In this document: piece after piece, positions 9,805 to 34,917 of the stretch
How positions within the stretch are numbered: position 1 is the stretch's first letter
Layout of the letters: every line of letters begins with the position of its first letter
Source: Actinobacteria bacterium HGW-Actinobacteria-7
GTDB taxonomy: Bacteria > Actinomycetota > Coriobacteriia > Anaerosomatales > PHET01
NCBI GenBank assembly: GCA_002841275.1
Contig: PHET01000025.1
Location: 1 to 34,917 of the forward strand
DNA: 34,917 nt
Reading direction: 5' to 3'
Notes under the pieces: model-generated
What the model saw: the letters and a program-made list of their open reading frames with translations, nothing else
Database searches by the model: none
Told to the model about the DNA's origin: nothing
Program-made: the position numbers and the translations under genes

Positions 9805-9832
9805 TTGACAAAGAATTGCCTTTGACTACCAT
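9805..9832 (+). promoter_or_regulatory. Promoter of the class III RNR operon
   Basis: A consensus -35 TTGACA (9805-9810) is followed after 16 bp by TACCAT (9827-9832). The expected transcription start near 9840 coincides with the 5' edge of the cobalamin riboswitch, which supports the placement. Confidence 0.65.
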
Positions 9833-9871
9833 ATGTTGTGCCACGGTTCCCCAGACCACAATATCTGGGGC
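9826..9871. promoter_or_regulatory. Two NrdR boxes
   Basis: Two sites resemble the NrdR consensus ACACWATATCTTGTGT: 9826-9841 (11 of 16 matches, strong right half ATAT-TTGTG) and 9856-9871 (12 of 16, strong left half CCACAATATCT). Their ATAT cores are 30 bp apart, close to three helical turns as in known tandem NrdR sites. The first overlaps the -10. NrdR represses RNR operons when (d)ATP is abundant. The pairing and location make this likely although each box is imperfect. Confidence 0.65.
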
Positions 9872-10038
9872 TAAGAGGGAAGCCGGTGCCTCCGAGTGGA
9901 GAATGCCGGCGCTGTCCCCGCATCTGTGTGCGGCGAGCTGCTGTCAGCTGAATGTCACTGGCGTGAGGTAGCGTCGGGAAGACGATGACAGTGGTGATGA
10001 CCCGCGAGCCAGAAGACCTGCCGCGGCATGAAGAACCG
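9844..10038 (+). ncRNA. Cobalamin riboswitch
   Basis: The leader of nrdD contains the conserved blocks of the AdoCbl riboswitch in order: GGGAAGCCGGTGCC (9878-9890 region), CTGTCCCCGCATCTGT and GCGGCGAG (9912-9936), TGTCACTGG (9953-9961), CGGGAAG (9975-9981), then GATGACCCGCGAGCCAG and the B12 box AGCCAGAAGACCTGCC (to 10022). P1 can form from CGGTTC (9844-9849) and GAACCG (10033-10038). No U-run terminator follows, so control is probably at translation. Cobalamin binding should switch off the B12-independent RNR, as reported for class I nrd genes in Streptomyces; that implies a B12-dependent class II enzyme elsewhere. Confidence 0.92.
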
Positions 10039-10136
10039 AAACGTTCGGGCGGGGTGTCTCAGCGGTTCGAGTATCGATGCGGCTGTGCTGCGTTGATACC
10101 CGGCCTGGGAGCCTGTTCCCCGAGAGGAGTATCAGC

Positions 10137-12194
10137 GTGGCCGAGGATCAGAACATCATTCCCGCGACGGAGCTCAACCCAACTGCGGTCGTGCCATCGG
10201 GTGTCATCAAGCGCGAGGGCGAGCGAGTCCCCTTCGATGCCGAGAAGATCCGCTCGGCCGTCGAACGCGCTGGCATCGCGTCAGGAGAGTACGACTCCAA
10301 CGAGGCCTTGCTGCTCACGGCCCAGGCGATCAAGGTCCTCAAGCACCGGTTCGGCAACCGCGAGCCCGACATCGAGCAGATCCAAGACGTCGTCGAGCAG
10401 GTGCTCATCTCGGCGAACCATTTCGCGACTGCTCGCGCCTACATCGTCTACCGCGAACAGCGTGCTCGCTTTCGCGAGGACAAGAGGACCGTCGTGGAGG
10501 TCGAGACCTCCGTCAACGAGTATCTCGACCGTGCCGACTGGCGCGTGAATGCCAACGCGAACCAGGGCTACTCGCTAGGCGGGCTGATCCTGAATGTGTC
10601 AGGTAAGGTCATCGCGAACTACTGGCTGTCGCACGTCTATCCTGCCGAGGTGGGCCGTGCGCACCGCGAGGGCGATCTCCACATCCATGACCTCGACATG
10701 CTCGCCGGCTATTGCGCCGGGTGGTCGCTGCGGACGCTACTGACAGAGGGTCTCAACGGCGTCCCTGGCAAGGTCGAGTCGGCACCGCCCAAGCACCTGT
10801 CGAGCGCGGTGGGACAGATCGTGAACTTCCTGGGAACGTTGCAAAACGAGTGGGCGGGCGCGCAGGCGTTCAGCTCGTTCGATACCTACTTGGCACCGTT
10901 CATCCGTCTGGATGATCTGTCCTACGACGAGGTGCGTCAGTCCATCCAGGAACTCGTCTACAACCTCAACGTCCCGTCGCGCTGGGGCACGCAGACGCCG
11001 TTCACCAACCTCACGTTCGACTGGACCTGCCCGGACGACCTCAAAGACGAGTACCCCATCATTGGGGGAAAGATCTGCGACTTCACCTATGGCGAACTGC
11101 AGACCGAGATGGACTTGATCAACCGCGCTTACATCGAGGTCATGACCGAGGGTGACGCCAAAGGCCGCGTCTTCACGTTCCCGATTCCCACCTACAACAT
11201 CACCAAGGACTTCCCGTGGGAGAGCGAGAACGCTGATCTGCTCTTCGAGATGACGGCGAAGTACGGCCTGCCGTACTTCCAGAACTTCCTGAACTCGGAG
11301 CTGTCTCCCAACATGGTGCGTTCGATGTGCTGCCGCCTGCAGCTCGACCTCTCCGAACTGCTGAAGCGCGGTAACGGCCTGTTCGGCTCGGCCGAGCAGA
11401 CCGGGTCGCTGGGGGTCGTCACGATCAACTGCGCGCGCTTGGGCCACCTGTATGCGGGCGATGAGCCAGCGCTGCTCTCGGCGCTCGACACACTGCTTGA
11501 GTACAGCCGGACCTCTCTCGAGCTCAAGCGTAAGGTCATCCAGAAGCACATCGACAACGGCCTGTTCCCGTACACAAAGCGCTACCTGGGCACGTTGCGC
11601 AATCACTTCTCGACGGTAGGCGTCAACGGGATCAACGAGATGATTCGCAACTTCACTGAGGATGCTCAGGACATCACCACCACTCAGGGCGAGGAGTTCG
11701 CGCTGCGCTTCCTCGATCATGTGCGCGCGCGCATCACTGCCTTCCAGGAGGAGACCGGGCATCTCTACAACCTTGAGGCCACGCCGGCGGAGGGCACGAC
11801 CTACCGGTTCGCCCGTGAGGACAAGAAGCGCTACGGCGATGCGATCCTGCAGGCGGGATCTACCGAGAACCCCTACTACACCAACTCGAGCCAGCTGCCC
11901 GCAGGCTTCACGAGCGACCCGTTCGAGGCCCTCGCCCGTCAGGAGCCGCTCCAGCGCAAGTACACCGGCGGTACCGTCCTGCACCTCTACCTGGGCGAGC
12001 GCGTCAGCTCGGTCGAGGCCTGCAAGAAGCTCGTACGCCGCTCGCTCGAGGGCTTCCGGCTTCCCTACATCACCATCTCGCCAACGTTCTCGATCTGCCC
12101 GACACACGGGTACCTCGATGGCGAGCACCAGTTCTGCCCGAAATGCGACGCCTCGGCAATAGCCGAGAAGCGTGCAGCCGCCTGTTGTAGCTGA
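10137..12194 (+). CDS. nrdD: Anaerobic ribonucleoside-triphosphate reductase, catalytic chain without glycyl-radical domain
   Basis: The 685-residue class III RNR large chain starts at GTG 10137 behind AGAGGAG; an upstream ATG at 10077 lies in the riboswitch expression region and is rejected. Residues about 18-110 form an ATP-cone (VIKREGERVPFDAEKIRSAV to YIVYREQRARF), the allosteric dATP/ATP sensor. The barrel carries SRWGTQTPFTNLTFDW, Cys398-Cys399 in RSMCCRLQLDL and GSLGVVTINCARL. The C-terminal zinc site is SICPTHGYLDGEHQFCPKC. The chain then ends at AACCS, with no RVxGY glycyl-radical motif; that domain is encoded by the next ORF. It makes dNTPs for DNA synthesis under anoxia. Controlled by NrdR-like boxes and a cobalamin riboswitch. 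Confidence 0.95.
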   Translation: MAEDQNIIPATELNPTAVVPSGVIKREGERVPFDAEKIRSAVERAGIASGEYDSNEALLLTAQAIKVLKHRFGNREPDIEQIQDVVEQVLISANHFATARAYIVYREQRARFREDKRTVVEVETSVNEYLDRADWRVNANANQGYSLGGLILNVSGKVIANYWLSHVYPAEVGRAHREGDLHIHDLDMLAGYCAGWSLRTLLTEGLNGVPGKVESAPPKHLSSAVGQIVNFLGTLQNEWAGAQAFSSFDTYLAPFIRLDDLSYDEVRQSIQELVYNLNVPSRWGTQTPFTNLTFDWTCPDDLKDEYPIIGGKICDFTYGELQTEMDLINRAYIEVMTEGDAKGRVFTFPIPTYNITKDFPWESENADLLFEMTAKYGLPYFQNFLNSELSPNMVRSMCCRLQLDLSELLKRGNGLFGSAEQTGSLGVVTINCARLGHLYAGDEPALLSALDTLLEYSRTSLELKRKVIQKHIDNGLFPYTKRYLGTLRNHFSTVGVNGINEMIRNFTEDAQDITTTQGEEFALRFLDHVRARITAFQEETGHLYNLEATPAEGTTYRFAREDKKRYGDAILQAGSTENPYYTNSSQLPAGFTSDPFEALARQEPLQRKYTGGTVLHLYLGERVSSVEACKKLVRRSLEGFRLPYITISPTFSICPTHGYLDGEHQFCPKCDASAIAEKRAAACCS

Positions 12195-24410: not shown

Positions 24411-24497
24411 GGCGGCGTATCCGAATTGGCACAGGAGGCGGACTTAAAATCCGCTGACCGAAAGGTCTTGTGGGTTCGACCCCCACCGCCGCTACCA
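24411..24497 (+). tRNA. tRNA-Leu (anticodon UAA)
   Basis: An 87-nt cloverleaf: acceptor GGCGGCG with CGCCGCT (a G-U first pair), D arm TCC/GGA, anticodon stem around CTTAAAA giving anticodon TAA, a long class II variable arm TGACC-GAAA-GGTC, T arm GTGGG-TTCGACC-CCCAC, discriminator A and encoded CCA. It reads UUA, a rare codon in this GC-rich genome; one TTA is seen in mfd. Confidence 0.96.
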
Positions 24498-24597: not shown

Positions 24598-25251
24598 ATG
24601 ACGGATGACAGACCCGCACGGTTGTACCAGGCCTTCGTGAGCCAGGATCCGGCGCAGGCGATCGCCGTCATCGAGAAGGCCCGTTCTGCGGGCATCGCAC
24701 AGGGGCAGCTGTTCGACCAGCTCTTCGCGCCCGCCATGTCGCTTCTGGGTGGCGCGTGGGCGGACGGCGCCATCGACGAGTACACCTTCACTCAAGCAGC
24801 GGTGGTGGCCGAGCAGATCACGAGTTTCGTCACGCCGCCAACGACCGCTCAAGACACCGGTGTGACCGTGCTGCTGGGCACCATGCACCGCGACCATCAC
24901 GCAATCGACAAGGACATCACGGCCGCCGCACTCAAGGAGGCTGGTCATCGGGTGATCGATCTGGGCGTCGACGTGCGACCCGCCGAGTTCCTCGAGCGGG
25001 CCGACGAGACCGGCGCGCGAATCGTGATCGTCTACGCCCAGCTCATCGGAACCGCACACAGCGTCTCCCGCGTCCGCGAGATGTTTCACGCAGGCGGCCG
25101 AGACGACCTTGTGCTGTTCGTCGCCGGCGGACCCTTCTCGGCGGATATATCGCTGGCTAAGCAGGTCGGGGCCAACGGTGTGGTGCGCGGGGCCGAGAGC
25201 GCATTGAAGCTGGTTGCCAAGATCACGGCGGGTCGCGGAGGCGGCACGTGA
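24598..25251 (+). CDS. Cobalamin (B12)-binding domain protein
   Basis: The 217-residue protein is started at ATG 24598 behind AAAGGAGG. Residues 1-85 form a four-helix cap (ARLYQAFVSQDPAQAIAVIE, LFDQLFAPAMSLLGGAWADG), whose AWADGAIDEYTF recalls the W/E cap of light- or B12-sensing proteins such as CarH more than methionine synthase. Residues 88-210 are a Rossmann B12 domain: VLLGTMHRDHHAIDKDI replaces the classic GDVHDIGKN, with His101 as the likely cobalt ligand and Asp104 in place of Gly; VAGGPFSAD is the GG motif. No methyltransferase partner is present. Its stop overlaps the TPR gene by four bases, so it is probably a sensor or carrier for the following genes. Confidence 0.8.
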   Translation: MTDDRPARLYQAFVSQDPAQAIAVIEKARSAGIAQGQLFDQLFAPAMSLLGGAWADGAIDEYTFTQAAVVAEQITSFVTPPTTAQDTGVTVLLGTMHRDHHAIDKDITAAALKEAGHRVIDLGVDVRPAEFLERADETGARIVIVYAQLIGTAHSVSRVREMFHAGGRDDLVLFVAGGPFSADISLAKQVGANGVVRGAESALKLVAKITAGRGGGT

Positions 25252-26411
25252 GCCCACGCAGCCGACAGGTTCTGCTCGCCGAAGGGCTTGCACGCCAGGG
25301 CCACGTCGCCCCGGCGGTAGAGGCCTGCTACGAAGCGTTGCGCCTCGATGAGTCGGATCCGCTGGTCCACGTGCTTCTCTCGGACCTCTTCCTTGCCGGC
25401 GACTTCTACGACGAGGCCATCGAAGCGGCCTCAACAGCCATCGAACTCGACCCGGACTGTGCCCCGGCGTTCCTGTCGCTAGGGCTCGCCTACGATCGCA
25501 GGGGCGGTATGTGGGACCAGTCGATCCTGGTCTGGCACGAACTCGCCGAGGTCGCCCCTGACCTGGTCACCGCACACGTGCAGCTGGGCGAGGCGTTCGC
25601 CGCCGCCGCGTTCGAGGAGGAAGCAATCGAGGCGTGGCGTGCCGCGCTGGGCCTCAACGCGCACGAAGCGCGAGCGATGTATAACCTCGCAGTCGCCGCC
25701 TTGAAGAAGGAGGGCATGGCCACCGCGCTTCCGGGCTTCCGACGTGCGGGCGAACTCGACCCGAGCCAAGACGACTTCTTCTTCGCGCTCGCCGGTGTCT
25801 ACGACGACGGGGCGGCCGCGCCCGATCCCATCGATGTGGCTCCGGATCGTGACAGCCGCTTGGGCGCAGCATTCGCGCTTGCCTTCGAGGAGGACTACTT
25901 CAGTGCGGTAGACCTCATCCGGCTGATTCTTGACGAGAACGCATCTGACGCCGAGGCGCTGGCGCTGGCGGGATACCTGTATCTGAAGCAGGACTCGGTC
26001 AACGAGGCTATGGCGGTCGCACTTCGTGCGCTGGCCATCTCGACCAAGACGCCCACCGCCGTCTACGTGCTGGGTGCCGCGTTCGCCAAGCGACCAGGGC
26101 TCAACAGGAATGCCGCGCGGGTCTTTGGCGCGCTCGCCAAGGCCGTGCCGAACCAGGCCATGCCGCACGTGCTTCTGGCCGAGTCACTTCTGGGCCTTCA
26201 GCGGTTCGGGCAGGCGAAGCAGGCCTACCTGAGAGCGGTTGAATTGGACCCGACGTTCGTTCGAGCACGCTTCGGTCTGGCGGCCGTGTTCCTGACGGAG
26301 GGCGAATATGCCCGCGCTCATCACGAGATCCGTCGGGCTGCCTACCACGACACGAGACGCCAGGGACTGTTCTGGCGCTTGTATGACGACTACGCGCAGG
26401 GGAGGGAGTAG
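25248..26411 (+). CDS. Tetratricopeptide repeat protein
   Basis: The 387-residue soluble protein has about ten TPR units, for example APAVEACYEALRLDESDPLV, YDEAIEAASTAIELDPDCAP, EEEAIEAWRAALGLNAHEAR, VNEAMAVALRALAISTKTPT and FGQAKQAYLRAVELDPTFVR. No signal peptide is seen. The GTG start overlaps the B12-protein stop by GTGA, and the next gene starts 3 bp after its stop. TPRs mediate protein contacts, so it may link the B12-binding protein to the downstream enzymes. I do not recognise a named family. Confidence 0.85.
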   Translation: MSPRSRQVLLAEGLARQGHVAPAVEACYEALRLDESDPLVHVLLSDLFLAGDFYDEAIEAASTAIELDPDCAPAFLSLGLAYDRRGGMWDQSILVWHELAEVAPDLVTAHVQLGEAFAAAAFEEEAIEAWRAALGLNAHEARAMYNLAVAALKKEGMATALPGFRRAGELDPSQDDFFFALAGVYDDGAAAPDPIDVAPDRDSRLGAAFALAFEEDYFSAVDLIRLILDENASDAEALALAGYLYLKQDSVNEAMAVALRALAISTKTPTAVYVLGAAFAKRPGLNRNAARVFGALAKAVPNQAMPHVLLAESLLGLQRFGQAKQAYLRAVELDPTFVRARFGLAAVFLTEGEYARAHHEIRRAAYHDTRRQGLFWRLYDDYAQGRE

Positions 26412-26413
26412 GG

Positions 26414-28417
26414 GTGCCCACGCGCAAAGGCGGACCACGCCAACCCAGGGAGCGAGTCGCCCGCCCCGACACAGCCACACCTCCGCCGCGCAGAGCGAGC
26501 ACGCAAGCAGCGGCAGACGTTGCGCAGGCCAAACCGGCTCAACGGAATCAGCTGTTCCCTGCGGGGGCGTCGCTGTATCCGCTGGACACGGAGACTCAGA
26601 GTCCTGAGGACTGGTACGGGCGTGATCCCGGTGAGGACCTCGACGAGCTTGCCAAGGCCCGCTGCGCGCTCGTGCGTGTGTTCGTGAGCTGGAGAGTGAT
26701 TGAACCGCAGGTCGGTCAGTACGCCGAGGAGGCGATCGAACGTCTCGCGGGAATCATCGAGGCTGCTCGTTCTCGCAAGATTCAGACGGTGGTCTGCTTC
26801 TTCGCCGACGACCGGCACTCCGAACTCACGGATGTCACGTGGGGAAAGCGCCGCGATCCTCGAAACGATTCATATCTTGTCCAGCGCGAAGCGGCACTGA
26901 TCCAGAAGGTCGTAGGCCGCCTGCGCAAAGAGGCCGGGGTGTTCGCCTGGCAGCTGGGCAATGAGGCCTTCATAGCGGGATTCACGTCATCCGATGAGCT
27001 CGAGACGTGGGTCGCCACCATGCGCGAGGCAATCCGCGAGGTTGACCCGACTCGCCCGATCGGGCTGGGCGCCGACGCGGAGACGCTGTTCCGTTCGAAC
27101 GGTGTGGACGCGCGCAACGCACTTGAGAGCTGCGAGTTCGCGGTGTCCCATGTGACCGCTGCGTATCGCGCTTACGCAGCCGAGGGCCCTCTCACGTCGG
27201 GCCCCTCGACCTACCTGGACTCGTTTCTCTTGCGGCACGCCCATCGCGGGCGGCCGGTTCTTCTCGACGATGTGGGCACGCTCGCGCTCGACATGTCCGC
27301 TGGCGAAGAGGCTTCGTATCTGCGCTCGGTCCTGTGGGGTGGGTTCATCAATAGGGCCGGCGGCGCTCTCGTGCGCAGGTTGCGCGACATGGACACCGAG
27401 CGCCGCGAGCCGTACTTCATCGATCCCTTCGAGACGCTCGTGGGGCTCATGGACGCCGAGGGCGTCGCCAAGCCGGCATACACGGAACTGAACAAGTTCG
27501 TGCGCACGGTGGCCCGAATCGACCTCAAGGCCCACACGCTGCTCGCCGAGCGCACCGCCGTTTTGGTGCCCTCCGAGCGCTATGAACCGCTGCCGAACCT
27601 TGCAGGACTCTACGACCCGCGTTCCTGTCTGCACGCGTTCATCGCGACCAAGAACGCGCACGTGCCTGTCGCCGTTATCGGCGAGGACGACGGATTCGAG
27701 GAGTTTCAGGTACTCGTGGTGCCCAGTGTGTTCGCGCTGGCCGATAAGACCTGGGAGCGGCTGGGCACGTTCGTCCAAAGCGGCGGCACTTTGCTGCTGT
27801 CCTACGGCGGTGGCGATGCCCACCCCGCAAGTCGCGATCTGTTCGGCGTCGAGTTTCTGGGCGACGGCGGACCGCGCGAGGAACTCTCATGCCGCGTGGC
27901 GCAGCCGGATGTTCTAGGAGCGCTTGAGAGTTTCGACGCTCGTTTCGAGGTCCCCAACTTCGCGCTGCTCTCGGGTGGCACGGCGACCATCGTCGCCACC
28001 GACGCGCAAGGAAGCCCGCTTCTTACTGTGAACCAAGTGGGCCAGGGCCGTGCGGTCTACATCGCTGTTCCTCTCGAGAGGGCGATCGCGCAGGGCGACC
28101 CTTGGGCGACGCCAGCGCCAATCCGTCACCTGATACGCGAGGTGTACGGTGCCGTGGCGCGCGCCGCGGGGTGTGGCGCGCCTGTCGAGTGCAGCGCTGC
28201 TGAAGTGGAGGTCGCGCTGTTCCAGGGGGAAGCCGATGATGTTGTTGTGCTACTCAATCACAGCGACGCCAAAGAGGAAGCGGTACTGACACTGGAGCGG
28301 CGGGTCGCGTCGATCTCTGACGTGCGGGGGGGCACCCCGGTGGCCGTGGGCAGCAACACGTTCACGGTGGGGCTTGAACCGAATGGTGCGAGCGCATTGC
28401 GATTGACGTACGCGTAG
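26414..28417 (+). CDS. Glycoside-hydrolase-like TIM barrel protein (GH-A clan type)
   Basis: The 667-residue protein starts at GTG 26414 behind GGGAGGGAG. Residues 1-50 are a basic Pro/Ala tail without a signal peptide. FPAGASLYPLDTET, LVRVFVSWRVIEPQVGQY and QTVVCFFADDRH follow GH5/GH42-like barrels; FAWQLGNEAF supplies the acid/base Glu184. The expected nucleophile glutamate on strand 7 is absent: VLLDDVGT has Asp285/Asp286. Residues about 380-560 resemble a beta-galactosidase trimerisation/GATase-like domain (LVVPSVFALADKTWERLGTF, SGGTLLLSYGGGD), and a small beta domain ends the chain. Likely acts on a glycan inside the cell, or is an inactive binder; substrate unknown. Confidence 0.75.
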   Translation: MPTRKGGPRQPRERVARPDTATPPPRRASTQAAADVAQAKPAQRNQLFPAGASLYPLDTETQSPEDWYGRDPGEDLDELAKARCALVRVFVSWRVIEPQVGQYAEEAIERLAGIIEAARSRKIQTVVCFFADDRHSELTDVTWGKRRDPRNDSYLVQREAALIQKVVGRLRKEAGVFAWQLGNEAFIAGFTSSDELETWVATMREAIREVDPTRPIGLGADAETLFRSNGVDARNALESCEFAVSHVTAAYRAYAAEGPLTSGPSTYLDSFLLRHAHRGRPVLLDDVGTLALDMSAGEEASYLRSVLWGGFINRAGGALVRRLRDMDTERREPYFIDPFETLVGLMDAEGVAKPAYTELNKFVRTVARIDLKAHTLLAERTAVLVPSERYEPLPNLAGLYDPRSCLHAFIATKNAHVPVAVIGEDDGFEEFQVLVVPSVFALADKTWERLGTFVQSGGTLLLSYGGGDAHPASRDLFGVEFLGDGGPREELSCRVAQPDVLGALESFDARFEVPNFALLSGGTATIVATDAQGSPLLTVNQVGQGRAVYIAVPLERAIAQGDPWATPAPIRHLIREVYGAVARAAGCGAPVECSAAEVEVALFQGEADDVVVLLNHSDAKEEAVLTLERRVASISDVRGGTPVAVGSNTFTVGLEPNGASALRLTYA

Positions 28418-28425
28418 GCGCACGG

Positions 28426-29856
28426 ATGCATCAATGGCCGCGGCACGGTGGGCCGGCGGTTGGACAGGATGACGGGGGTGCACGGATGCTCGAAGACGGC
28501 GACGACGGTTCGAGGTTACTGCTTGAATCATGGCTGGACCTGGCTGACGCGATAGAGAGCCAGCCGCAGCTGCGTGCGGTGTTCTTCGACCCGGTGACGG
28601 GCCTCCCCACCACGCCGCTGCTGTTCCCGCGGATCAGTTCGTTGTTGGAGGATCGCGGCGAGGTCTCACTTCTGTGTGTGAACGTGGTTCGCTACTCCCG
28701 CATCGAGGAGATCTACGGCTGGAAGGTCTTCGACGGCGTCATGCGCCAGGTGGCCGAAGTGCTGGACCAGATCACCGGCGAGACCCTTCGAGACTCAGAC
28801 GTTATCGCCGAACTCATGAACTCCGGCAACGCGTTTGTCGTCGTGCTCTCTCCGCCGCGCATGACCGCCTGTATCGATCCCTCATCGCGCGATGAGATCG
28901 CCCGACGTGTCGAGTCGCGGCTTCGCGAAGAGCTGGCTTTGCGGTTCGAGCCTGCGCTGTTCAAGAAGTTCGGATGCTACGTCGGCGCTTCAACGATCTG
29001 TCGAGACGAGGAAGTACGTCTGGAGCGGCTCGTCTTCGAGGGGCTGCAAGAGGCGCTGGCAGACAGTCATAACCGCGTCAGCGAGGACGCGAGCCAGCGC
29101 GAGACGGCGCTGCGGGCAATACTACAGGCCGAGGAGATCCACACGCTCATGCATCCGATCTTCGACCTTTCGAGCATGGAGCCCGTAGGGTACGAGGCGC
29201 TCTCACGCGGCCCCGAAGGCTCGGAGTTCGAGCACCCGGACAAGCTGTTCTCGGTGGCCTACGGGGCCGACCTGGTGACGAGGCTCGAGCGTGTATGCCG
29301 CAAGCGTGCCCTCGAAATGGCCGTCGGGATGCCGGAAGGCCGGCTGCTGTTCCTCAACATCGAACCGGGAGCCGTGTCGGACCCCCGGCTCAGAGACGCG
29401 GTCACCTTGGCGATGATGGCCGAGAATCCTCTGGCGCCCGGCTCTGTGGTGCTCGAGATCACGGAACGTGAGGCGATCGCGGATTTCGCCGCCTTCCGCG
29501 CGACACTCGACTATGTGAGGGCGTTGGGATTCAGCGTCGCGGTCGATGATGCCGGGTCGGGCTTCGGCTCTCTGCAGTGTCTTGCGGAGGTGCGCCCCGA
29601 GTGGCTCAAGATCGACCAGTCGCTCGTACGTGGGTGCGACTCTGATGAGGTTCGCCATACGATGATCGAGTCGCTGGTCACAGCGGCCGCTCGCCTTGGT
29701 TCAAAGGTCATTGCCGAGGGAATCCAGACGGTCGAGGAACTCCAGACGCTTCGCTCCGTTTGTGTGGGCTACGGCCAAGGGTTCCTGCTGGCGATGCCGG
29801 CACCTGAGTTTCCGGAAGACGAAGACCTACCCGCCCGACAGTATGTGAAAGGCTAG
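28426..29856 (+). CDS. Degenerate GGDEF plus EAL domain cyclic-di-GMP phosphodiesterase
   Basis: The 476-residue soluble protein is placed at ATG 28426; ATG 28486 (MLEDGDDG) is an alternative start. A degenerate GGDEF domain spans about residues 50-230: DPVTGLPTT keeps the LTGLPNR region but the signature loop is SGNAFVVVL, so it should not make c-di-GMP. The EAL domain (about 235-465) is intact: VGYEALSRGP, LFLNIEPGA, LEITEREAI, VAVDDAGSGFGSLQ (usual DDFGTG), LKIDQSLV, IAEGIQT and GYGQGFLLAMP, giving the metal ligands and the catalytic lysine. It should hydrolyse c-di-GMP. It follows the GH-like gene by 8 bp and selD by 3 bp. Confidence 0.85.
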   Translation: MHQWPRHGGPAVGQDDGGARMLEDGDDGSRLLLESWLDLADAIESQPQLRAVFFDPVTGLPTTPLLFPRISSLLEDRGEVSLLCVNVVRYSRIEEIYGWKVFDGVMRQVAEVLDQITGETLRDSDVIAELMNSGNAFVVVLSPPRMTACIDPSSRDEIARRVESRLREELALRFEPALFKKFGCYVGASTICRDEEVRLERLVFEGLQEALADSHNRVSEDASQRETALRAILQAEEIHTLMHPIFDLSSMEPVGYEALSRGPEGSEFEHPDKLFSVAYGADLVTRLERVCRKRALEMAVGMPEGRLLFLNIEPGAVSDPRLRDAVTLAMMAENPLAPGSVVLEITEREAIADFAAFRATLDYVRALGFSVAVDDAGSGFGSLQCLAEVRPEWLKIDQSLVRGCDSDEVRHTMIESLVTAAARLGSKVIAEGIQTVEELQTLRSVCVGYGQGFLLAMPAPEFPEDEDLPARQYVKG

Positions 29857-29859
29857 TAG

Positions 29860-30906
29860 ATGAGTTCACACGAACCGGTACGTCTCACAAGTCTCTCAAG
29901 CAAAGCCGGTTGAGCGGCCAAGTGGGGTCCGGAGGATCTCCAGAAAGTACTCGACAAGATCGCGCCGGGAAACTCGGACGCGCTGATGCTGGGATTTGAG
30001 ACCAGCGATGACTGCGCGGTCTACCGGCTCAACGACGACATGGCGGCGCTGCTGACGATCGACTTCTTCACCCCGATCGTCGACGACCCTTATGATTTCG
30101 GGCGCATCACGGCAGCAAATGCACTCTCAGACGTGTACGCGATGGGTGGCCGGCCGCTTACCGCGCTCAACATGCTCGCGTTTCCCTGTTCGCTGGGTGC
30201 CGACATCGTTGGGGAGGTCGTTCGTGGGGGTGCCGAGAAGGTCACCGAGGCAGGTGCCGTGACCGTGGGCGGCCACACCATCGACGACAAGGAGCCCAAG
30301 TACGGGCTGTCGGTCTTCGGAGTGGTGCATCCGGACAAGGTCGTTCGAAACCGGGGTGCTCGACCGGGAGACGTTCTGTTTCTCACCAAGCCGGTAGGCA
30401 CCGGAATCTGGGGCACCGCGTTGAAGCGCCAGCTGGTGACTGAAGACGACGCGCGAGAGGTCATCGAGTCGATGGCGACGTTGAACAAGGCGGCGTGCGA
30501 GGCCATGGTCGAAGTCGGCGTGCATGCTGCCACGGACCTGACTGGGTTCGGGGTGCTTGGCCACCTTCAGGAGATGGCGCATGCGAGCGGGTGCGCAGCT
30601 GAACTCTCACTGGCTACCGTTCCCCTGTTCCCCCGGACCGTCGAGTTCGCGGAGGAGGATGTGGTTCCGGGCAGAACGGCAGAGGTCATCTCTTGGGCGA
30701 ACGGCTTTGTGCAGTGGCACAGCTCGCAACCGCGCAATCTCTGGATGAAGGTGCTTTGCGACCCTCAGACCAGCGGTGGCCTCATGATCGCCGTGTCGGA
30801 GGAGGCAGCGGATCAGCTGCGCATCGGCCTCGAGGTCCGGGGTGTCGAGGCGGCGAGTATCGGCCGCTTCACCTCGGGTTCGCCAGGCGTCATCACCGTC
30901 ATCTGA
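29860..30906 (+). CDS. selD: Selenide, water dikinase, itself a selenoprotein
   Basis: Read from ATG 29860 (AAAGG upstream) through the in-frame TGA at 29911-29913, the product has 348 residues: MSSHEPVRLTSLSSKAG, then Sec18, AAKWGPEDLQ. This matches the E. coli start SVRLTQYSHGAGCGCK, in which Cys17 is catalytic; Sec replaces it. The second Cys of that motif is Ala here. The ATP-binding core follows: DDCAVYRLND, DFFTPIVDDPYDFGRITAANALSDVYAMGG, GGHTIDDKEPKYGLSV, LTKPVGTGI, ATDLTGFGVLGH and DPQTSGGLMIAV. It makes selenophosphate for tRNA-Sec. Gene callers that stop at TGA would start it at 29986 and lose the active site. Confidence 0.93.
29911..29941 (+). promoter_or_regulatory. SECIS hairpin of selD
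   Basis: Right after the UGA, a seven-pair stem (29924-29930 with 29934-29940, two of them G-U) closes a GGA loop at 29931-29933. The loop guanines are 21-22 nt from the U of UGA, within the distance used by bacterial SelB. The position and GG apex support Sec decoding. Confidence 0.7.
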
Positions 30907-32201: not shown

Positions 32202-33596
32202 ATGGATACCAACACCTCTCTGCGCGCCCTGCCCAAGACCGATGAAGTCCTCGTGCGGGCCGAGCTGGCCTCCGCACTTGAGCGGATGCCGCGTGCGATG
32301 GTCCTGGACGCCGTGCGCGGCGCCATAGAGGCTGCTCGCGCACGCATTCTTGCAGGCGAGGAGCTCAACTACACCGTTGAAGACGCAGCGCGTGACGCGG
32401 CAGGCCGGGCGGTTCTCGCCGAGCGCCACTCGCTGCGGCGGGTCATCAACGCGACCGGCATCATCGTGCACACCAATCTGGGGCGAAGCGTGCTCTCCGA
32501 GGCAGCGGTCGCGGCCGTGGCTGAGGTCGCGACGCACTACTCAACACTCGAGTACGACGTCGAGAGCGGGGAGCGCGGCAGCCGTCACGTGCACTGCGAA
32601 GAGCTGCTGTGCCGGCTCACGGGTGCGGAAGCCGCGATGGCCGTCAACAACAACGCGGCAGCCGTCATGATCGGGCTGGCTGCTCTTGCACGCGGGCACG
32701 AGGCGATCGTGAGCCGAGGGCAGCTCGTCGAGATCGGCGGCAGCTTCCGGATACCGGACATCATGCGCGAGTCCGGCGCCACGATGGTCGAAGTCGGCAC
32801 CACCAACAAGACACATCTGCGCGACTATGAGAACGCGCTCACCGACAAGACCGGCCTGATTCTCAAGGTCCACTCGTCGAACTACCGCGTGGTGGGCTTC
32901 ACCTCCGAGGTGGAGACGCGCGACTTGGTCGACTTGGGGGCACCACACGCCGTGCCGGTGATGGAGGATCAGGGTTCAGGCGTGCTCGTCGACCTGCAGC
33001 GTTACGGGCTTCCCTATGAGCCCACCGTAGCGCGCAGCATCGAGCAGGGTGCTGCCGTGGTCACCTGCAGTGGCGACAAACTGCTGGGCGGTCCGCAGGC
33101 CGGCATCCTGGTTGGTCGCCACGACATCATCCAGCGGCTCAAGAAGCACCCGATGGCCCGCGCGCTGCGCCTCGACAAGATGACGCTCGCCGCACTTGAA
33201 GCGACGCTCAGAGCCTATCTTGATGAGGAGCGCGCGGTCGCTCAGATACCCACGCTGCGCATGCTCACGATGCCTCTCGCACAGAGCAGCGAGATCGCCG
33301 AGAAGCTCGCCCAGCGTGTGCGCGAGGCGGTAGGCGATGGTGCCGAGGTCACGGTGGCCGAGGACGTCGCCCGCGCGGGCGGCGGCTCGCTTCCCATCAC
33401 CGATATCCCCACCGCTGTCGTCGCGGTGGCTCCACGCACCGTGAGCGTCGTTGCGCTCGAGAACGCGCTTCGCACCGGTGCCGAACCGGCGATCATCGGC
33501 CGCGTCAAAGAAGAGCGGCTGCTGCTCGATCCGCGAACGCTCGTGAACGCCGAGGAGCACGATATCGTCGTGCGCCGTCTCGGCGAGATCCTCTAG
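32202..33596 (+). CDS. selA: L-seryl-tRNA(Sec) selenium transferase
   Basis: The 464-residue PLP enzyme converts seryl-tRNA(Sec) to selenocysteinyl-tRNA(Sec) using selenophosphate from SelD. The ATG at 32202 gives the family length (E. coli 463). Motifs: the N-terminal helical tRNA-binding region [122 protein letters not shown] and the PLP lysine Lys293 in [16 protein letters not shown]. The selB start lies 8 bp downstream. Confidence 0.97.
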
Positions 33597-33604
33597 GTCT
33601 GCCG

Positions 33605-34917
33605 ATGAGTGCGCCGTCGCTGGTTCTGGGCACCGCTGGCCACATCGACCACGGCAAGTCTTCGCTGGTGCACGCGTTGACGGGCACCGACCCTGACCGG
33701 TTGAAAGAGGAGAAGGACCGCGGCATAACCATCGAGCTGGGGTTCGCACGCCTTGAACTCCCGTCGGGCCGGGCGATGGGCGTGGTGGACGTACCGGGAC
33801 ATGAGAAATTCGTACGCCAGATGGTCGCTGGAGCAACCGGTATCGATGTGGTGATGCTGGTCATCGCCGCAGATGACGGTGTGATGCCTCAGACGCGTGA
33901 GCATCTCGCAATCCTGGACCTGCTGGGTGTGGATACCGGCGTGGTCGCGCTCACCAAGATCGATCTGGTCGAGCCGGACTGGATCGAGCTCGTCTCGGCG
34001 GACATCGCTGCGCTGCTCGTGGGCACCGGTATCGAAGGGGCACCGATAGTCCCCGTGTCCAGCCGCACGCGCCAGGGCGTCGATGAGCTGCTCAAGGTGC
34101 TCGACGAGGTCGCCACAGACGCGCCGAGTAAACACGCGAACCTTCCCATGCGCCTGCCGGTGGACCGGGTGTTCACGATCGCAGGCGCGGGCACGGTTGT
34201 GACGGGCACGATGTGGTCCGGATCGGCCACGAAAGACGACCTGGTCGAGATCTATCCCGAGCGCGTCGATGCACGCGTGCGGGGAGTTCAGGTGCACAGC
34301 ACTGCCGTCGAGCGGGCGCACGCCGGCCAGCGAGTGGCGATGAACGTCGCAGGCGTGGAGCGCGACCAGATTAGCCGAGGAGACATCATCGCCGCCCCGG
34401 GTACGCTGACGGTCACCGACCGCTTCGATGCGCGCTTCACCTATCTCGGACTTCCCGGTGACGACCGTCCTTTCGAGACGGGTGCGCGGGTCCATGTGAA
34501 CCACGGCACCCGCGAGGTGCTGGGCAGGGTGCTGCTCATGGACGGGGTGGAGTCTCTGGCGCCGGGGCAGAGCGCGCTTACGCAGATCCGTTTGGAAGAG
34601 CCGCTTGCACCTCGCTTCGACGATCGTTTCATCGTCCGGAGCTACTCGCCGGTCTACACCATCGGCGGTGGCGTCGTACTCGACGCGCTGCCTCCTAGGC
34701 GCACCAACCTCAAGGACCACGAGCGGGAACTGCTCGACGCACTGCTCGCACACGATCTCTCCAGCGCGAGCGTGGGATTGCTCGCTGCGCGCGCCCTGCC
34801 CATGAGCAGTGCGGAGGTTGCTGCTGCACTTGGCGTACCGCGTGCGCAGGTCGCCGACGAACTCAACAAGGCGAAGCTCGAACGGTTGAAGATAGGCACC
34901 GAGACGGCGTTCATCAC
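33605..34917 (+). CDS. selB: Selenocysteine-specific elongation factor SelB (3' truncated by window)
   Basis: The first 437 codons of SelB run from ATG 33605 to the edge. SelB delivers Sec-tRNA to UGA codons marked by a SECIS hairpin. The GTPase domain shows G1 [19 protein letters not shown]2 [14 protein letters not shown]3 [20 protein letters not shown], and G4 ALTKIDL. Domain 2 has [17 protein letters not shown] and domain 3 [14 protein letters not shown]. The C-terminal winged-helix RNA-binding repeats have just begun ([20 protein letters not shown]). The start is ATG 33605; no strong ribosome site precedes it, so translation is probably coupled to selA. selC is not in the window. Confidence 0.96.

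Follow-up and report, generated by a model that had tools for sequence, protein, structure and literature searches.

What can a corrinoid-type (B12) protein, a tetratricopeptide repeat (TPR) protein, a glycoside hydrolase (GH)-like protein and an EAL phosphodiesterase have in common, that they are encoded in one run of closely spaced genes? The run lies on contig PHET01000025.1 of Actinobacteria bacterium HGW-Actinobacteria-7, the host genome being 2.53 Mb. The entire contig, 34,917 nucleotides, was analysed and is called the window here. An earlier note made from this sequence had described four plus-strand open reading frames (ORFs) with these domain identities as one unit that matched no recognised pathway. 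The ORFs are present, their domains were confirmed at the Pfam level, and no known pathway could be assigned. The unit is real but smaller than had been described: it is a three-gene core, B12–TPR–GH, with an optional EAL gene. The best reading, strongly supported for the unit and inferred and still tentative for the mechanism, is a cytoplasmic sensor complex for a corrinoid and a sugar ligand with an optional cyclic di-GMP (c-di-GMP) output.

Relatives of the cassette fall within one order, Anaerosomatales/OPB41 of the class Coriobacteriia, which is deep-branching and little known and has few cultured members. The GH-like protein was found in 59 of the 69 genomes of the order and in 0 of the 329 other genomes of the class. 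A sample of the phylum (396 genomes) yielded only three distant GH relatives outside the order, and no B12 or TPR orthologue lies inside their loci. No trio was found outside the order; two weak B12 matches (about 1e-27) were seen there. Two peptide patterns seeded the scan of the genome collection, and copies that are very distant might escape it.

In all ten genomes of the order without the GH-like protein, orthologues of B12 and TPR are absent too, and no member of the trio survives alone. Unbroken contigs of G003 and of five genomes in genus g14 carry ppx, tRNA-Leu, selD and selA with no cassette in between, and in G013 only 101 bp lie between the tRNA and the selD match. In G017 other genes stand after ppx and the tRNA, and there is no selA match. 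The contig of G021, again a genome with no selA match, ends within ppx; its loss call comes solely from the genome search, as do the calls for the incomplete genomes G064 and G066. A tree built from pyruvate kinase, PPX and DUF501 requires four losses of the trio, in which the EAL gene was removed too, and intact ppx–tRNA-Leu–selD sites are seen in two lineages. By eye, other ORFs were noticed at some cassette-less sites: glycosyltransferase- and GtrA-like genes in G038 (L158, 2360-6761), a multihaem cytochrome-like ORF adjoining the tRNA in G017 (L155, 1-7861) and a QueD-like ORF in G003 (L153, 3754-4824).

The EAL gene follows a different pattern. The trio occurs without an EAL orthologue in 8 of 38 loci, which requires at least three EAL-only losses on the tree and rules out the EAL protein as an essential partner. 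No relocated copy was found in the eight EAL-less trio genomes at E<=1e-60, and none of the eight trio-less genomes searched has an EAL orthologue. The EAL gene can be lost alone but was never seen in the absence of the trio, which makes the unit a core of three genes plus an optional fourth. The trio itself is very probably one functional unit. Scattering of the genes among relatives, which had been proposed as a sign against a unit, was looked for; the genes remain neighbours throughout the order and disappear jointly, and the unit was not refuted.

Gene order was compared across about 38 wide loci and 44 named loci. The order ppx–tRNA-Leu–B12–TPR–GH–(EAL)–selD–selA is preserved in loci extending that far, and because the arrangement recurs throughout this set, chance is excluded as its source. 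The spacing from B12 to TPR is -4 to +5 bp in nearly every relative. That from TPR to GH is about -14 to +8 bp after allowing for start-codon choice, which probably accounts for the larger values, and start and stop codons overlap within the trio in most loci. One exception, G005, has about 1.6 kb between B12 and TPR (L165, 2915-4502), where a toxin-antitoxin-like set of PIN-like, ribbon-helix-helix-like and nucleotidyltransferase-like ORFs was seen by eye.

Within the window the tight coupling that had been claimed stands in part. The 4-bp overlap of B12 and TPR is present, and the gap between TPR and GH is 2 bp, not 3. The 8-bp gap between GH and EAL is probably an artefact of start choice. 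Given that conservation of the EAL protein starts near residue 32, that its orthologues are about 451-458 aa long and that the GH-to-EAL gaps in the nearest relatives of the window are 73 and 77 bp, a start at ATG 28486 (Met21) appears likelier than one at 28426, and the gap would then be about 68 bp. The B12 gene begins at ATG 24598 with AAGGAGG upstream. No terminator-like site was found on the plus strand inside the unit. Table 1 gives the features of the locus.

Table 1. Cassette genes and boundary features in the window
Feature	Position	Strand	Basis
tRNA-Leu(TAA), cassette left boundary	24411..24497	+	ARAGORN
Corrinoid-binding protein (putative), four-helix cap and Rossmann domain, 217 aa	24598..25251	+	Pfam, conservation, AF2
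Cytoplasmic TPR protein, 387 aa	25248..26411	+	TPR_11 1e-26; 4-bp overlap with B12 gene
GH42/Op5Man5-like three-domain protein, 667 aa	26414..28417	+	Glyco_hydro_42M 6.5e-13, Cellulase 2.6e-6
EAL protein, degenerate GGDEF and intact EAL, 456 aa from Met21	28486..29856	+	EAL 2e-44, weak GGDEF 3e-6
selD, selenocysteine (Sec, TGA) codon 18, housekeeping flank, cassette right boundary	29860..30906	+	

In 31 of 32 relatives the distance from the tRNA-Leu(taa) to the downstream B12 gene is 49-190 bp, and in cassette-less genomes this tRNA adjoins selD. At the other end selD begins 3 bp past the EAL stop (29856), so that the closely spaced gene run continues beyond EAL; selA follows further downstream, and both are conserved neighbours. 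The selD gene had been overlooked in the earlier note because an in-frame TGA breaks its ORF. It is itself a selenoprotein gene, and in nearly all relatives its frame is likewise broken after 14-19 codons, the pattern that a Sec codon would give; in the relative L048 there is no stop and the frame is open throughout. An obligate link to selenium through selD and selA was rejected, both being retained after loss of the trio in G003 and genus g14. In G017 and G021 the trio and a selA match are both missing, and there the cassette may have gone along with the selenocysteine genes. A 386-aa protein on the minus strand (33593-34753) is found downstream of selA in most loci at 37-51% identity and has no Pfam or NCBIfam match.

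What could such a unit do? The B12, TPR and GH-like proteins form a vertically inherited, order-specific cytoplasmic unit, which would most simply be a single complex. Hydropathy, the only measure used here, suggests no signal peptide or membrane segment in any of the four proteins, the GH-like N-terminus included, as had been reported for that protein. The corrinoid protein, changing its occupancy or the ligand state of its cobalt, would dock on the TPR scaffold together with the GH42-like protein. The latter, probably a trimer, would be a sugar- or glycan-ligand binding subunit and not a digesting enzyme. Where the EAL protein is present it would be the output, a c-di-GMP phosphodiesterase whose degenerate GGDEF would be a regulatory domain. 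The analysis shows the unit, where it occurs, its joint loss, the active-site changes, the predicted folds and the lack of signal peptides; formation of the complex, the corrinoid as the sensed variable, the sugar ligand and control of the EAL protein are all things that we infer.

The GH-like protein is modelled by AlphaFold2 (AF2) as a three-domain GH42-type structure with a TIM barrel and a GH42M domain (predicted local distance difference test, pLDDT, 81). The closest folds are those of GH42 beta-galactosidases, Op5Man5 and GH164 mannosidases, and the transglycosylase 7x87 is among the matches. The protein resembles the GH42 beta-galactosidases and GH164 beta-mannosidases over the whole length of the fold (template modelling, TM, score about 0.65-0.69) and is likewise of a cytoplasmic type without a signal peptide, but identity is about 14-17%, and it falls far below the cut-off of the NCBIfam GalA model and just below that of Pfam Glyco_hydro_42. 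Op5Man5 is the best sequence match in the PDB (1.2e-28), with 22% identity in the fold match. An N-terminal tail of about 40 residues (26414-26540), rich in Pro, Arg and Ala, is poorly conserved and predicted to be disordered (pLDDT 32-38).

The catalytic residues of Op5Man5 are E156 and E281, and its active site also contains R58, N155, E335 and W317 (PMC8233224). A gap-free alignment over beta7 places E281 at position 286 of the window protein, where 40 sequences have D (19), G (17), E (3) or A (1); the nucleophile Glu is thus not conserved. The Trp of the -1 subsite (W317) is replaced by R321 in 38 of 40. The acid/base Asn-Glu on beta4 is kept (N183 in 38 of 39, E184 in all 39), as are the equivalents of R58 and E335 (R88, E340). 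The three relatives outside the order retain both the Glu and the Trp. Op5Man5 and the GH-like protein share a TIM barrel, a trimerisation domain and four active-site residues, and differ in the nucleophile, in the Trp and in an additional C-terminal beta domain of the GH-like protein. By eye, residue 286 shows no correlation with the presence of EAL. The simplest reading of these alignments is that the family gave up canonical retaining hydrolysis yet kept the pocket, and the protein is probably not a canonical retaining glycosidase. It is because the pocket is kept and the canonical nucleophile lost that a ligand-binding role is proposed.

Alternatively, the protein may be an unusual but active cytoplasmic glycosidase or transglycosidase that uses Asp286 or Asp285 in place of the Glu, an intracellular glycan then being under corrinoid and TPR control. 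The retained N183-E184, R88 and E340, the intact GH42-type fold, the invariant D285, the occasional Glu286 (3 of 40) and the transglycosylases among GH42-like folds (7x87) would all fit such an enzyme. This is nevertheless unlikely: Gly or Ala stands at 286 in 18 of 40 sequences, the Trp has become Arg in 38 of 40, the relatives outside the order retain both the Glu and the Trp, and D285 aligns, gap-free, with Gln280 of Op5Man5 and not with the nucleophile.

The B12 protein is modelled as a cap and a Rossmann domain (AF2, pLDDT 91) and matches Pfam B12-binding (6e-15) and the B12-binding_2 cap (6e-5). D99 and H101 (D-x-H) are invariant and W54 is conserved. With this fold and this invariant pair, it is likely that a corrinoid is bound. 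The closest structures are MttC (7xcn, 1.8e-19) and 1y80, followed by CarH or photocobilin domains. A cobalamin riboswitch (9827-10039, 122 bits) lies directly upstream of the anaerobic ribonucleotide reductase NRDD (10077-12194), about 14 kb from the cassette.

Two known functions were considered for this protein. In the first it would be a methyl carrier of the MtxC type in a C1 or O-demethylation route. The TPR protein would dock a methyltransferase whose gene lies elsewhere, and a (methylated) sugar would be presented by the GH-like protein. MttC is the closest solved relative, the cap, Rossmann domain and D-x-H motif are shared (28% identity to 7xcn in the fold alignment), D-x-H resembles MtxC proteins and not the E-x-H of the aligned photocobilin, and the host genome has 8 other PF02310 matches. 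Set against this, the operon partners here are TPR and GH-like proteins, no methyltransferase or activase gene was recognised among the annotated flanking genes or in the conserved order, and all NCBIfam corrinoid models, the subfamily models included, score far below cut-off (best 65 of 310 bits); for these reasons the protein is not classed among the known methyltransferase partners. The conserved Trp and a near-invariant R127 would also be left unexplained, and a methyl carrier appears quite unlikely. Whether the protein senses the state of the corrinoid rather than transferring methyl groups is judged an even question.

The second function is light sensing. The CarH-type light signature consists of GxxW, EH, GxxH and GxxxP (PMC11796333). 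GxxW is present (G51 in 32 of 33, W54 in 33 of 33), but EH is replaced by F64 (32 of 33) and T65 (31 of 33). For GxxH, H101 is invariant and position 98 is R in 27 of 33 and G in 2, and GxxxP is G123xxxR127, the near-invariant R standing for the P. With three of four motifs failing, the protein is not filed as a photoreceptor, and light sensing of the CarH type was rejected. Of the CarH-like cap that had been noted, the overall two-domain cobalamin-binding architecture stands and three of the four motifs do not; the protein also lacks the DNA-binding or bilin domain of CarH and photocobilins. Coupling of a B12 domain to c-di-GMP has a precedent in a photocobilin that carries a diguanylate cyclase domain (PMC11796333, PMC10979010).

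The EAL protein looks like a catalytically intact phosphodiesterase, as judged from its motif residues. Catalytic and metal residues E257, N311, E344, D374, D375, K395, E431 and Q451 are kept in 28-29 of 29 sequences, in keeping with the c-di-GMP degradation that had been predicted, and the GG[DE]EF motif is replaced by SGNAF or similar. It resembles in this the GGDEF-EAL phosphodiesterases with a degenerate GGDEF, but has no input domain on its chain and is found only alongside the trio. The host genome has 23 GGDEF matches and so appears rich in c-di-GMP signalling. The lowering of c-di-GMP that had been suggested can be at most an accessory output, since the loci without EAL keep the trio, and the odds that the trio controls the EAL protein are about equal either way. 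In the conserved neighbourhood, whose recognised genes are pyruvate kinase, DivIC, DUF501, ppx, selD and selA, nothing was identified as a polysaccharide synthase, a glycosyltransferase or an export gene. On this ground the locus does not match a c-di-GMP-controlled exopolysaccharide operon of the Bcs, Pel, Psl or Pga type, and the action on an exopolysaccharide that had been proposed loses its footing also through the unconserved nucleophile of the GH-like protein. An anti-phage defence system was rejected, no PADLOC match being obtained for any of the four proteins.

Several observations weigh against the sensor complex. First, three GH proteins have Glu286, two of them in the nearest relatives of the window. 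Second, the optional status of EAL weakens any function centred on c-di-GMP. Third, the joint loss of adjacent genes could be a single deletion event; since one deletion can remove neighbours, joint loss shows the dispensability of the block more directly than physical interaction. Fourth, synteny extends to the flanking block, pyruvate kinase to selA, which makes gene order by itself weak proof and loss more telling. On the last point rests the view that the genes are mere neighbours without a common function in a slowly evolving region. That view is largely refuted and very improbable: the genes of the trio lie about 0 bp apart in most loci, their start and stop codons overlapping, the trio was removed as a block four times while the flanks stayed, and no orthologue of it stands alone. 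A CarH-type light sensor lowering c-di-GMP and controlling an exopolysaccharide, as the earlier note had it, shares the architecture, the GxxW and some fold matches with the B12 protein but is scarcely credible with F64-T65, R98xxH101 and G123xxxR127 in place of the other motifs, with cultured members of the order coming from subsurface sites (PMC9686372) and with no exopolysaccharide synthase or export gene recognised nearby.

Within the open-licence literature and family libraries searched, no paper or model was found that describes the combination; each of the parts belongs to a known superfamily. No paper there combines cobalamin-binding, tetratricopeptide and EAL domains with a glycoside hydrolase, and none links OPB41, glycoside hydrolase and cobalamin. 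The sensor complex might in its fullest form be an undescribed, light-independent switch in which corrinoid and sugar gate c-di-GMP on a TPR scaffold, with a dedicated EAL protein in most lineages and in one order only, a conceivable but doubtful proposition.

Among the four, the TPR protein is conserved best, with a mean pairwise identity of 0.70, followed by B12 (0.66), EAL (0.65) and GH (0.62), against 0.61 for the neighbouring pyruvate kinase. From this conservation above pyruvate kinase and from retention across most of the order, the module is probably important to the lifestyle of these bacteria. If the proposed complex is true, c-di-GMP signalling would gain a light-independent sensor of the B12 type and a dead glycosidase serving as a ligand-binding subunit. 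The repeated natural losses with intact flanks, together with the lineages that lack EAL, offer ready comparisons for function.

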